Below are positions 21,179 to 26,900 of a stretch of DNA of 64,000 nucleotides, piece by piece. The notes below the pieces were generated by a model, which was not told the origin of the DNA, did not search any database, and was given only the letters and a program-made list of their open reading frames with translations. Each line of letters begins with the position of its first letter. Positions within the stretch are counted from its first letter, which is position 1. The stretch is from Planctomycetota bacterium (GTDB lineage Bacteria > Planctomycetota > Phycisphaerae > Sedimentisphaerales > Anaerobacaceae). The position numbers were made by a program, and so were the translations under genes. Location of the stretch: NCBI GenBank assembly GCA_022566315.1, contig JADFJC010000001.1, forward strand, positions 35,982 to 99,981. The letters run 5' to 3'.

Positions 21179-21985
21179 GTGAAAATTGATTATTTGAAAG
21201 ATCTGAGAGAAAAGAAAGAATTGGTTTCAGTTGTACTGCTTGGTGTTTCAGCGTTTTTGGCGGTTTTGATTTTGGTTAAGGTAACGGGCTTTTTTACGGC
21301 CCCAGCCAAAGCAGAACTTTTAGTTAAGAATGCTGTTGCGCAAAACAACACGGATGCCAATGATATAGACAAGTATTTTGCGAAATACAAGGCGCTTGCT
21401 AATGAGTTGAAAAAGAACAATTTGTTTGCGCCGCCTGCGGCGAAGCAGCACCCGGTAAAAGAGGTCTGGGGTATATTTGGTAATGAGGTGCTGATAAAGG
21501 ACAAGTGGTACAAAATCGATGACACGGTGGGAGGCGCGAAGATTGTGGCAATCGGACCTACCGAAGTTACTATCGAATGGGACGGTAAGGAAAAAACCTT
21601 TGCCCCTATCGATTCAAAAAGTTCTTCGCAGCCGGGTGGTTCAAGAGCAACAGCCAAAGGGGGGCCTACGAGACCTGGAGGAGGAAGTGCCCAGATGGTT
21701 ATAATTCAGTCACAAGGAAGACCAACAGGCGATCCTGGAGACGGCCCTGGGGGCGGTATGAAGAGAATGAAGGAAAGATTCCAAAATATGTCGGGGGCTG
21801 ACAGAGACAAATTCATGGCTGTAATGAAGAAGAGAAGCGAAGAATATAAGAAAATGTCTGAAGAAGAAAGGATAAAGTTTAAATCCAAAATGATTGAAAA
21901 ATTCGGCGGAGGGGAGCCAGGTGGTGGACGGGGACCAGATGGCGGAAAACGAGGTGGTAAAATAATTATAAAAGGACTTAAGTAA
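21179..21985 (+). CDS. GspC-like protein (paralogue A) with HR-type domain and charged RERF-type C-terminus
   Basis: TM + 'NNLFAPPAAKQHPVKEVWGIFGNEVLIKDKWYKIDDTVGGAKIVAIGPTEVTIEWDGKEKTF' (GspC/PilP HR-like) + 'RMKERFQNMSGADRDKFMAVMKKRSEEYKKMSEEERIKFKSKM'. Confidence 0.6.
   Translation: MKIDYLKDLREKKELVSVVLLGVSAFLAVLILVKVTGFFTAPAKAELLVKNAVAQNNTDANDIDKYFAKYKALANELKKNNLFAPPAAKQHPVKEVWGIFGNEVLIKDKWYKIDDTVGGAKIVAIGPTEVTIEWDGKEKTFAPIDSKSSSQPGGSRATAKGGPTRPGGGSAQMVIIQSQGRPTGDPGDGPGGGMKRMKERFQNMSGADRDKFMAVMKKRSEEYKKMSEEERIKFKSKMIEKFGGGEPGGGRGPDGGKRGGKIIIKGLK
21200..21640 (+). repeat. Long direct repeat, copy 1 (partner about 22010-22460)
   Basis: Nearly identical nucleotide sequence shared by the 5' halves of the two GspC-like genes. 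Confidence 0.9.
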
Positions 21986-21997
21986 GGGAGACAAATT

Positions 21998-22843
21998 ATG
22001 AAACTTGATTATCTGAAAGAAAAGAAAGAATTGGTTTCAGTTGTACTGCATGGTGTTTCAGCGTTTTTGGCGGTTTTGATTCTGGTTAAGGTAACGGGCT
22101 TTTTTACGGCCCCAGCCAAAGCAGAACTTTTAGTTAAGAAGGCTGTTGCGCAAAATAACGCGGGCGCCGAAGATGTGGACAAGTATTTTGCGAAATACAA
22201 GGCGCTTGCTAATGAGCTGAAAAAGAACAATTTGTTTGCGCCGCCTGCGGCGAAGCAGCACCCGGTAAAAGAAGTCTGGGGTATATTTGGTAATGAGGTG
22301 CTGATAAAGGACAAGTGGTACAAAATCGATGACACGGTGGGAGACGCTAAGATTGTGGCAATCGGACCTACCGAAGTTACTATCGAATGGGACGGCAAAG
22401 AAAAAACCTTTGCCCCTATCGACTCAAAAAGTTCTTCGCAGCCGGGCGGGTCGAGGGGTTCAAGGGGTTCAAGAGCGACAGCCAGTAGCGGTGGGCCTGG
22501 AGGAGGACGTGCCGAGATGGTTACAATTCGGTCGGAGGGAGGACCAATGGTCAGGCCTGAAGGCGGAAGAGGGTCCAGCCGTGGAGGCATGGAGAGATTC
22601 ATTGGGGGAATGAGGGAAAGATTCCAGAATATGCCTGAGGCCGACAGGGACAGATTTAGAGCCGAAATGCAGGAAAGAAGAGGAAGATATATGAATATGT
22701 CTGAAGCAGAAAGGGAAAAGTTCAGAGCCGAAATGCGTGAAAGATTTGGCGGTGGACGTTCAGGCGGTGGACGGCCGTCAGACGGCGAACGGGGCTCAGG
22801 TGGCAGTCGGGGCTCAGGTGGCGGACGACGAGGTGGTAGATAA
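21998..22843 (+). CDS. GspC-like protein (paralogue B), tandem duplicate of previous, RGG-rich tail
   Basis: Near-identical first ~150 residues to 21179..21985, then diverged 'MRERFQNMPEADRDRFRAEMQERRGRYMNMSEAEREKFRAEMRERFGGG'. Confidence 0.6.
   Translation: MKLDYLKEKKELVSVVLHGVSAFLAVLILVKVTGFFTAPAKAELLVKKAVAQNNAGAEDVDKYFAKYKALANELKKNNLFAPPAAKQHPVKEVWGIFGNEVLIKDKWYKIDDTVGDAKIVAIGPTEVTIEWDGKEKTFAPIDSKSSSQPGGSRGSRGSRATASSGGPGGGRAEMVTIRSEGGPMVRPEGGRGSSRGGMERFIGGMRERFQNMPEADRDRFRAEMQERRGRYMNMSEAEREKFRAEMRERFGGGRSGGGRPSDGERGSGGSRGSGGGRRGGR
22010..22460 (+). repeat. Long direct repeat, copy 2
   Basis: See 21200-21640. Confidence 0.9.
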
Positions 22844-22873: not shown

Positions 22874-23887
22874 ATGAAACGTTCAGGAACAACACTAATA
22901 TTTGTAATAGTTTGGGCTGCGGTGCTTTTTGCTTCCTTTGTAATCGGCATTTGCATCAGAGAAGTCAGGTTTCAGTATGCCAAAGTTGAATCCAAAGCAG
23001 ACATTGAACCTGAGACAAGCAGTGAGGTTCAAATGCCAGACGCGACAGATCAACTTGTAAACGAGCTGGCCCAGAGAAGGCCTATGCCCGGCCCCGGAGG
23101 CGCTGAAAGGCCTCGCAATTTTTCTCCTGAAGAAAGAGCCGGAGCAGGAGGGGAAAGAATGGCGAGGATGGGGGAGCGATTTGAAGGTATGTCTGAGGAT
23201 GAAAGGCAAGAGGCTATAGCTCAGATGCGTGAAAGATTCGGCGGCAGGCGACGGGGAGGTGGTGAGAGGTTTCAAAATCTCTCCGAAGAAGAGAGAGCGA
23301 AAATGGAAGATGAAAGAAGACAGATGAGGGAAAGATTTGAGAACATGTCTGAGGAAGAAAGAGAAGCATACAGAGCACAAATGCGTGAAAGATTTGGTGG
23401 AAGGCGGTCATCAGGTGGCAGAGAAGACGGCCGCCGCCGATCAGGCGGCAGCGGTGACGGTGCACCTCCACCGCCGAAGGGCAGGGCCTGCTTTGTTGCT
23501 GAGACCCATGTGTGGGTAGATGGCAAGCTCGTACAAATTTCTAAAGTCACCGCGGGCCAGACAGTCGGCAAGCAGTTTTGTGGGTCATCGTCTCTGGAGC
23601 AGGTTCAGGAGCACGAAGGAACGTTCGAGTGTCGTGACATAGCGCTCGAGAGCGGAAATACCATCAGCGTTGTCGATGCACACTGCTTCATGCTCGATTC
23701 CGGACGATGGATCGCGGCACAGAACTTGACAAGCGGCCTAAGATTGAAAACGCTGACCGGCACTGTCGGTATCAAAAGCGTTACAAAAAGAGCCGTGCCT
23801 TATACCGGCAAAGTTTACAATCTGAAGGTTAAAAGCTCAGACCAGTACATGGTAGGCAAAGATATGGTAATTGTGCGTGATTATTAA
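22874..23887 (+). CDS. Single-pass membrane protein with RERF repeats and C-terminal Hint (Hedgehog/intein) domain
   Basis: N-terminal TM; three to four 'MRERFxNMSEEERxxxxAQMRERFGG' repeats; C-terminal 'CFVAETHVWVDGKLVQISKVTAGQ...GNTISVVDAHCFMLDSGRWIAAQNL...VYNLKVKSSDQYMVGKDMVIVRDY'. Confidence 0.7.
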   Translation: MKRSGTTLIFVIVWAAVLFASFVIGICIREVRFQYAKVESKADIEPETSSEVQMPDATDQLVNELAQRRPMPGPGGAERPRNFSPEERAGAGGERMARMGERFEGMSEDERQEAIAQMRERFGGRRRGGGERFQNLSEEERAKMEDERRQMRERFENMSEEEREAYRAQMRERFGGRRSSGGREDGRRRSGGSGDGAPPPPKGRACFVAETHVWVDGKLVQISKVTAGQTVGKQFCGSSSLEQVQEHEGTFECRDIALESGNTISVVDAHCFMLDSGRWIAAQNLTSGLRLKTLTGTVGIKSVTKRAVPYTGKVYNLKVKSSDQYMVGKDMVIVRDY

Positions 23888-23990
23888 TGCGGTGCTTCGG
23901 TGCATGTTCGATCTGCTCATAGAACACCGCACCGGCCCGTAGCGCCGATCAGGCGAAAGACAGTAAGAGAATAATTGGATTTAGAATGAG

Positions 23991-26900
23991 GTGAAAAAAA
24001 TGGAACGGTCAAAATTAATAATATCAATAGTAGTTGGTATTGCATCGGTCCTTATTGTCTGGAGGGTCGGTTTTTACCCGCCGGTGCCTGAACAAACAGG
24101 AAAACCAACTGAAACCCAAAAAGTAGCTGTTGAACCTGAGCAGCCCGAAGAAGCTCAAAAGTTAGGTGACGCAAACGAGCCTGCGGTGGCCTCTGATGTT
24201 AACGAACCCGGAAGATTAACGGATGTTAACGAGCCCCGAACAGTAGCTGCCGTTGGGGTTGGGGAGCCAATAAGATTAGCTGCCGTTGGTGGGCCAAGAG
24301 GGCCAGATGATGTTGGTAGGCCAAGAAGAGCAGTTGTCATTACCGAGCCGAATGAGCCTGTTGAGCCAAACGAACCGATGGAAATCGTGAATCTCAAAAA
24401 TGTGGAGATGAAAACCATTATTGCGAAGCTCGCAGAATGGACCGGCAAGGTAATTATTCCCACCGATGAGGCGATGAAACAGAGAATAACTATATACGCG
24501 CCGAAGAAGCTGCCAAGAAGCAAAGCTATTTCGAAGATATATAGTGCGCTGCGTATGAAAGGCTACATTGTCGAACAGACCGATGGCACGATTTTTCTCA
24601 AACCAATGAAGGATGCAAAGCTCGGCGAGGTTCCCACGATATCGGATGATTACCCGCTTGCGATGGTTGAAAATAAAGACCAGGTAGTTCAAAAGTTCTT
24701 TAAGCTGAAGAACTACAGTCCTTCGCAGATGGGTCAGATTATTCTGCCGTTGATAGACGAGTACGGCTACGTAAGCGCTGATGAAGGCACCGGTAGTCTG
24801 CTGGTAATTGATACAGTTAAGAGTCTGATGCGCATTAGTCTGATTATCAAACAGTTTGACGTGGTCGAAGTTGAGGAAATTTTCACAGAGATATTTGAAA
24901 TTCGTCACGGTGACCCCACGGAGATTGTCAAGCTGCTTCAGACACTGTTAGGTGACGGCAGCAGCAGTGTGAGAGGCCCCAGCCGAGGCCGTGGGTTTCC
25001 GTCAAGACCGAGTTCTTCGAGCAGTTCATCTAAAAGCAAAAGTAAAAGCACAGGTGGTACGGCAATATCGGTTACGGTCGGCACCAGCCGGACGCCGGCT
25101 ATTCTTATCGCGGAGCCGACGTACAACTGGATTATCGCAAAAGCAACGGCTGAAGATTTAAAGCAGATTGCCGAGTGGATTGAGAAGCTCGACAAGGCTG
25201 TGCCTACACTGTTTATTGATCAACCTCTTGCGAGAATTGAAAATAAAAATCAGATAGTTCAGAAATTCTTCAAGTTAGAAAACTACAGTCCTTCGAAGAT
25301 GAGCCAGATTGTCGGACCTTTGATTAGCGATACCGGCTATGTAAGCGCCGATGAAACCACGGGCAATCTTGTAGTGATTGATACGGTTGAAAGTCTGATG
25401 CGCATCGAGATGATTATCGAACAGTTTGATGTGCCCGAAGCTGAGCAAACCGTTACGGAGATATTTGAAATACGTTACGGCGACCCATCGGAGATTGTCC
25501 AGTTATTGAGGATGCTTATAACCGGTGAGACCGGCACCAGCTCAAGGAGTCTTGGTCGAAGCAGCAGTTACGGCCGAAGTAGTTACAGCCGGACCAGTTA
25601 TTCGTCAAGCCGTGGTTATAGTAGTAGAGGTAGTTCCAGGTCCGGCTCATCATCGGTTATGATTGGGCCAAGCGAACAGCCGGTTGTGCTTATACCGGAG
25701 CCGAAGCGCAGGTGGATTATCGCAAGGGCGTCGGCTGAAGATATGAAACAGATTAGCGAGTGGATAGATAAACTTGACCACGAGGAACCGGTCAGAGCAG
25801 AATACGAAACAGTTTCAATCACGTATGCTGATGTTGGCGAAGTTGCGAGCCGTCTTAACGAGGCGCTGCAGCAGATGCCAGGCTCAGAATTGCAAACGAG
25901 CGTTCTTATTCAGCCGTTAGAGCAGGCAAAACAGATTGTCATCTTCGGCAGGGCGGATATACGCGAAATGGTTAAGAAACTTATTATGGAAGTGGACGTT
26001 CCTCCCGGTGAGTTTGAAACAAGGGTTTTTGAACTGAAATATGCCGACCCCGACCAGATTAAGGAAAATATCGACGAACTCTATAGTGAGACAGCCCCCG
26101 GTGGCGGCGGCTCGGCCAGTTACTACTATTACAGATACGGGCGCGGCAGCCAAGGAAGTGATGCAAGTACGGTAAAAGTAATATCATTTCCGACGATGGG
26201 ACAGTTAACGGTGATTGCCTCGCCTGATAATATGCTCAAAATTATCGGGCAGATAAAGGATTGGGATGTTCCGCTGGATGTGGAGAAGCTCAAGCCGAGG
26301 ATAATTGAGCTGCATAACTCCGACCCGGTGCAAATGGTCAATCTTCTAAAGACGCTTTTTACCGAAGAAGGTGGCGGAGGTATGAGTATCTTCGATATTT
26401 TATTTGGCGGAGGTAGTGGGGAAAAGGCAAAAATTGTCGGGCCGCTCTATGGCCAATTGACCTTTGAGGAGGTGCCAGGGACAAGGAAGATAATCATAAT
26501 AAGCAAGATTCCCGAGGCATACGATGTCATTGAGCAATTGATACTTGACCTTGACAGAGAGGAGATGGGCGAGATACCCAAAGTTATAGAGCTCAAGTAC
26601 GCAGACCCTGAAGACCTGAGCGAACGTCTAAATGCAATGTTCGTCGAATCGGGACAAACAGCCAGGATTCGACTCACTGCCCAGGGACTGACCTCAACGT
26701 CGGCGATGGATGATTCAGGTGACGGCGGCAGTAGTAACGCCAACCAAAACCAAAACGCCGGCCAGTCGGAGGATAACACTTATACGCCGCCGTGGTCCGG
26801 GTCCGGTGCTCGCAGCAGTATCGATACAGAGCGGCCGATAAGCAACGTCATAGGCAGGATTCGCTTCGTGCCGGAGCCGCATACCAAGTCGATTATGGTG

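Follow-up and report, generated by a model that had tools for sequence, protein, structure and literature searches.

Why should a gene inside a type II secretion system (T2SS) operon end in a Hint (Hedgehog/intein) domain? The window analyzed here, a stretch of 64,000 nucleotides from a planctomycete genome, carries such an operon in the order E-F-G-H-I-J-K-L-M-C-C-X-D, where gspE to gspK were named from sequence and L, M, C, and D alone were scanned. The gene that we call X encodes a bitopic repeat protein with a C-terminal Hint tail (Table 1). The transmembrane (TM) segment, the RERF-type repeats, Cys206, the block-B-like GNTISVVDAHCFML, and the IVRDY end described in a first-pass annotation of the DNA are all found in the open reading frame (ORF). 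The C-termini of both GspC paralogues have the RERF/SEEER repeats of the neighboring X, and these repeats also occur elsewhere in the genome and in the family. In GspD, the short secretin domain is matched in eight stretches, which is above the usual number.

Table 1. Features of gene X and its surroundings (positions in the window)
Feature	Coordinates	Strand	Basis or remark
Tandem gspC-like genes (n = 2)	21179..22843 (21179-21985; 21998-22843)	+	Upstream of X
X, T2SS-operon bitopic repeat protein with C-terminal Hint tail, 337 aa	22874..23887	+	ORF
X N-terminal TM helix, ~residues 6-28	22889..22957	+	By eye, sequence
X charged RERF(x)NMSEEER repeats, ~residues 83-176	23120..23401	+	Sequence comparison
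13-bp direct repeat CGCCGATCAGGCG, upstream copy flanking the insert	23435..23447	+	Sequence
Recombination tract, approximate	23459..23998	+	93-100% DNA identity to CSMAG_2761 (L184); flanks mostly 67-88%
X linker PPPPKGRA, residues 198-205	23465..23488	+	Sequence
X Hint domain, residues 206-337	23489..23884	+	Model, Foldseek, Pfam, family profile
Cys206, predicted nucleophile	23489..23491	+	Alignment; 64/64 in clade
His247, clade-specific	23612..23614	+	63/64 in clade; 4/21 in ordinary Hints
Val267 at the block-B Thr position	23672..23674	+	Val/Ala 63/64 in clade; Thr 20/21 in ordinary Hints
His270, block-B His	23681..23683	+	Alignment; 64/64 in clade
Terminal Arg-Asp-Tyr replacing His-Asn plus +1 residue	23876..23884	+	Sequence, alignment
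3′ UTR from pseudopilin-Hint gene, 55 bp	23888..23942	+	Homologous to the 3′ UTRs of L075, L069, L003, L035, L021, and L022
Remnant of old gene end, untranslated	23943..23978	+	RRSGERQ-stop-ENNW here, RRPGGRQ-stop-ENNW in L184
gspD secretin, 1282 aa	23991..27839	+	Scanned

The fold can be regarded as settled: residues 206 to 337 of X almost certainly make up a true Hint domain. The AlphaFold model of the Hint region (141 residues; pLDDT 89, pTM 0.83) has the horseshoe fold, and its top Foldseek match in the PDB is the bacterial intein-like (BIL) domain 2lwy (E 9.5e-8, TM 0.80). There are 58 PDB chains at E ≤ 1e-3, and the best 50 of these 58 are all inteins or BILs. The Pfam search suggested in the first-pass annotation gave a divided answer: for X alone the PT-HINT match (E 4.5e-4) lies under the curated cut-off, but PT-HINT matches 57 of 58 homologous domains (best E 2.4e-8), while Intein_splicing matches 21. 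Moreover, a profile built from the Hint family matches 2lwy with E 8.5e-9. The PT-HINT matches of the homologues, the profile match to 2lwy, and the PDB matches of the model place the assignment above chance, and the original Hint claim is thereby borne out.

Which half-reactions the domain might still perform was judged from residue counts in 64 copies of its clade and in a same-class comparison set of 21 Hints, all but one of the ordinary kind. Cys1 and the block-B His, recognized at the outset as retained, are invariant in the clade; the block-B Thr of the same N-terminal site is replaced, in X by Val267. A Thr at this position is usual in Hints without being obligatory. In inteins, it assists the first step of the reaction (PMC4031507). 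With Val or Ala there in 63 of the 64 copies, this step may run slowly in the clade or depend on activation, a point against the autoprocessing reading given below. His247 is followed by Gly249, which is present in all 64 copies. At the other end of the domain, the block-F column, with His in 10/21 ordinary Hints, has Asp or Glu in the clade; the penultimate His (17/21) has become Arg in 61/64 copies and the terminal Asn (17/21) has become Asp in 63/64. After this Asp, most clade copies have one aromatic residue (V-R-D-[Y/W/F]) and then stop. It was thus correctly seen early on that X has no HN end and no C-extein. Since the residues for Asn cyclization are gone and the pair that forms the thioester is kept, step 1 alone is left, in intein terms (PMC4031507), and the domain is predicted to be incapable of splicing or of cleavage at its C-terminal end. 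Just N-terminal to Cys206, Lys202 (-4) and Arg204 (-2) are conserved (57/64 each). Their codons are mixed, AAA (28) and AAG (24) for Lys-4 and AGG/AGA/CGN for Arg-2, and conservation despite such synonymous variation means that selection acts on the junction residues. As far as retained and lost residues can tell, the cleavage or transfer chemistry proposed for this protein would be confined to its N-terminal junction.

Gene X belongs to the operon, and its tail is an addition. In ~20 family genomes, an X counterpart of 128 to 215 aa with TM segment and repeats, and without Hint, lies between gspC and gspD. Hence the host gene is conserved, but the tail is present in three genomes (the window's, CSMAG_2761, and CP070766) and missing in ~20; among these homologous operons, the tail is not distributed as a core T2SS component. 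Neither is it absent from all of them apart from the window, because the two further genomes have the same X-Hint fusion. One of the two, CP070766.1 (L185), is a metagenome-assembled genome (MAG) labeled Candidatus Zixiibacteriota with a T2SS operon of the planctomycete family, and its label or bin is doubtful.

The origin of the tail can be read from the DNA around it. X of the sister species (G070) is 88.6% identical over residues 1 to 182, lacks Hint, and ends in RRRPGGRRQENN; in the window, the corresponding DNA runs on into Hint. Behind the stop codon, the 3′ UTR resembles those of six pseudopilin-Hint genes (z 6-17), and what is left of the original gene end comes next; its first 13 bp are the downstream copy of the direct repeat (23943). 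In a tree with host labels assigned from sequence patterns, the T2SS copies, all three, group as a single clade (99/94) that branches within a mainly pseudopilin-Hint clade (98/96). The 3′ UTR homology together with this nested position indicates that a pseudopilin-Hint gene was the source of the tail, and Hint on X is very probably a captured module. In this scenario, the 3′ end of such a gene (linker, Hint, and ~55 bp of 3′ UTR) would have been inserted into the last codons of X at the base of the fusion lineage, and the window's genome would later have received it by recombination from a donor closely related to CSMAG_2761. Between the window and CSMAG_2761, dS is 0.057 in Hint, ~1.05 in the rest of X, and 0.76 in gspM; the tract of high identity and the low Hint dS show that the window's genome acquired the Hint end recently, by recombination. 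Between T2SS Hint copies, omega is 0.14 to 0.15 at dS ~0.9, which places the tail on X under purifying selection. The T2SS may benefit from the tail.

Other routes to the same arrangement were considered. Independent insertion in the window's genome is ruled out, as CSMAG_2761 and CP070766 share the same old-gene-end remnant. Loss of the tail in G070 is less likely, given the Hint dS of 0.057 to CSMAG_2761 against 0.76 to 1.05 in the surroundings. Transposition of a fixed cassette was rejected, since most copies share no related sequence on their downstream side; the 13-bp repeat lies in low-complexity codons, and similar stretches recur in Hint-less genes.

Most copies of the domain are found outside the T2SS operon. 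Four further copies, 70-74% identical, are encoded in the window's genome; pseudopilins (MKRKGFTLVELLVVIAIIALL...) carry two of them, and long beta-helix surface proteins carry the other two. A pseudopilin query gives ~80 matches in this genome, nearly all of them pseudopilin N-terminal regions, and a Hint tail on two of these argues against a general sorting signal. The domain occurs in 28 of the 89 genomes of the GTDB family, and nearly all of the 67 distinct ORFs extracted stop exactly at the domain end. The hosts are H-X9-DG-like pseudopilins, beta-helix/FN3-like surface proteins, S8 subtilase, VIT-VWA, PQQ propeller, and FGE-type lipoproteins; judged by eye, nearly all have N-terminal signals typical of export. 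Pseudopilin paralogues without Hint stop just ahead of the linker, at RLDSMLVNDLP, compared with ...RLDSFLVNDGEGEPGPKGRPCF in those with it. A T2SS-specific role, as first suggested, is not supported in view of these hosts, mainly pseudopilins and surface proteins, and of the ~20 Hint-less X genes. The copies form a Planctomycetota clade at the extreme C-terminus of their hosts. A scan of 85,488 species returned close relatives only in Planctomycetota records and in one MAG labeled Zixibacteria; the genomes examined are mostly MAGs, and relatives may exist beyond them and this single scan. Other Hint proteins at class level are mostly VHN-ended, usually with more sequence after the domain.

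Some ORFs depart from the common pattern. In L086 (4283-7828), L089, and L093 of genome G044, Hint closes with A-L-D-C, thus with Cys at +1, and a further 14 aa (SKKTWEILEEVRK-like) follow where V-R-D-aromatic-stop would be expected; judging by these ends, the three are possibly capable of more than the N-terminal step. L179 (G026) and L183 (G109) have ordinary Hints in tandem, an unusual arrangement; three stretches were matched in each protein, and ...VHNKGCF... connects the domains. L060 (9607-10839, G033) has the start of a REP-associated tyrosine transposase in frame with an FGE-type tail and Hint, and is either a fusion or an artifact of assembly or frame. A rule that Hint replaces PEP-CTERM was dropped, as the genome encodes just two members of the choice-of-anchor Q family, and no anchor is recognized in the member that lacks Hint.

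How does this tag relate to known Hint systems? BIL domains, of types A and B, were reportedly described by Amitai in 2003 and Dassa in 2004. Tag and BIL share the Hint fold, with 2lwy closest in both structure and sequence; both have Cys1, the block-B His, and the block-F Asn, and both occur in variable bacterial proteins. Type B BILs are without block-G similarity and cleave without splicing; in the tag, the block-G position is recognizable but substituted. Type A BILs have a His-Asn end and are splicing-capable (PMC4031507). The tag differs from these in its Arg-Asp-aromatic-stop, the missing block-B Thr and C-flank, and a conserved PKGR linker. It differs from splicing inteins in having no C-terminal His-Asn and no +1 Cys/Ser/Thr with C-extein. 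The PT-HINT domain of polymorphic toxins (PF07591) precedes a toxin and ends in HN, whereas the tag is terminal. Burglin (2008) described a bacterial group with a Hint-like domain at the C-terminus, reported from myxobacteria, Reinekea, and enterobacteria; some of its proteins have signal peptides, and the region ahead of the domain is conserved and contains two cysteines (PMC2362128). The tag is likewise C-terminal in bacteria, but its hosts differ from those described. Among the papers searched, none joins a Hint domain with a prepilin, and the single one that joins it with planctomycetes concerns Neisseria MafA/MafB. The tag also resembles PEP-CTERM, LPXTG, and the T9SS CTD in being a C-terminal module that is portable among diverse exported proteins, and one host carries a choice-of-anchor domain. 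Those are peptide signals, whereas the tag is a sparse, folded domain predicted to process itself, for which we know of no processing enzyme. With the Hog-Hint of Hedgehog, which is attached to cholesterol by Hint processing, it shares the C-terminal Hint, the N-terminal thioester step alone, and a mature protein on the N-terminal side; it is bacterial and, unlike Hog, has no sterol-recognition region.

The best reading of these data, which we hold to be probable, is that of a Hedgehog-like C-terminal autoprocessing tag on exported proteins, restricted to the N-terminal thioester step. The host would be exported by the Sec or prepilin route, and Hint would fold outside the cytoplasm. Cys206 would attack the Ala205-Cys206 peptide bond with His270 assisting, an N-S acyl shift that would yield a thioester. 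If water resolves the thioester, the host would be released ending in ...PPPKGRA, and the product from a pseudopilin host would have nearly the length of its Hint-less paralogues. Autocleavage as such is likewise judged probable. Alternatively, an amine or hydroxyl of another molecule could resolve the thioester, leaving the host attached there as Hedgehog is to cholesterol; such transfer to an acceptor in place of hydrolysis appears the less likely outcome. His247 is a candidate base for this second step, activating the incoming nucleophile. It lies at the strand end before the hairpin preceding block B, the place of the cholesterol-activating Asp in Hedgehog, and equivalence of the two residues is a lead drawn from their position relative to the hairpin. 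In Hog, an extra active-site Asp or His has been described as the Hog-specific residue (PMC7765530). A full bacterial counterpart of Hedgehog, in which a portable tag on pseudopilins, surface proteins, and X forms a thioester and the ...PKGR-Ala/Gly end of the exported protein is joined to an envelope nucleophile with His247 as the acceptor-activating base, is a tentative idea and rather improbable. No sterol-recognition-like region follows Hint, as the protein ends with the domain, and an acceptor-binding element is therefore not evident.

Four other explanations have to be weighed against the autoprocessing tag. PT-HINT is the best Pfam model, and the class also has PT-HINT-like proteins of the ordinary kind, which recalls a pretoxin that releases a toxin; for X, this is refuted by the sequence, with nothing after Hint to release and the HN end required for C-terminal release lost. 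A dedicated T2SS component, with Hint processing or anchoring part of the secretion system, would fit the place of X between gspC and gspD, the purifying selection on the fusion shared with two further genomes, and pseudopilin hosts that are themselves T2SS/T4P-like. It is nonetheless improbable, as ~20 related operons, including that of the sister species, have X without Hint and most Hint copies are located elsewhere.

A catalytically dead fold, serving binding or stability, for example by docking to the T2SS or a pseudopilus, would account for the lost block-B Thr and C-terminal half-reaction residues, and the conserved Gly249, Trp279, and Tyr325 could serve structure; such exact retention of Cys206 and His270 in 64 copies would be needless in a dead domain, and Lys-4 and Arg-2 are under selection though they lie outside the fold. 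We consider this unlikely. The same holds for a self-removing hitchhiker without benefit, tolerated, like an intein, as it cuts itself off and spread by recombination and by copying of gene 3′ ends, the module together with its 3′ UTR. Its patchy presence with few copies per genome, at least eight changes of host type on the tree, an insert that brought a 3′ UTR and left part of the former gene end behind, and recent spread through recombination all speak for such an element. Exported proteins are the sole hosts, however, which random insertion would not give, and copies with the same host type group strongly together in the tree; no transposase or homing nuclease was seen in the module, nor sharp repeated cassette ends across the copies.

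What the autoprocessing tag would mean depends on cleavage. The T2SS copy documents domain gain at a gene 3′ end, with the empty site, the old-end remnant, and the donor-like sequence all visible. If the tag cleaves, its 132 aa would make it a compact candidate for protein ligation tools, and these bacteria would form, on exported proteins that have left the cytoplasm, a thioester intermediate at the C-terminus, as animals do with Hedgehog. Prokaryotes would then have a route to release or conjugate proteins at the C-terminus that needs neither sortase nor exosortase, and this would explain the recurrent tail of planctomycete pseudopilins and surface proteins.
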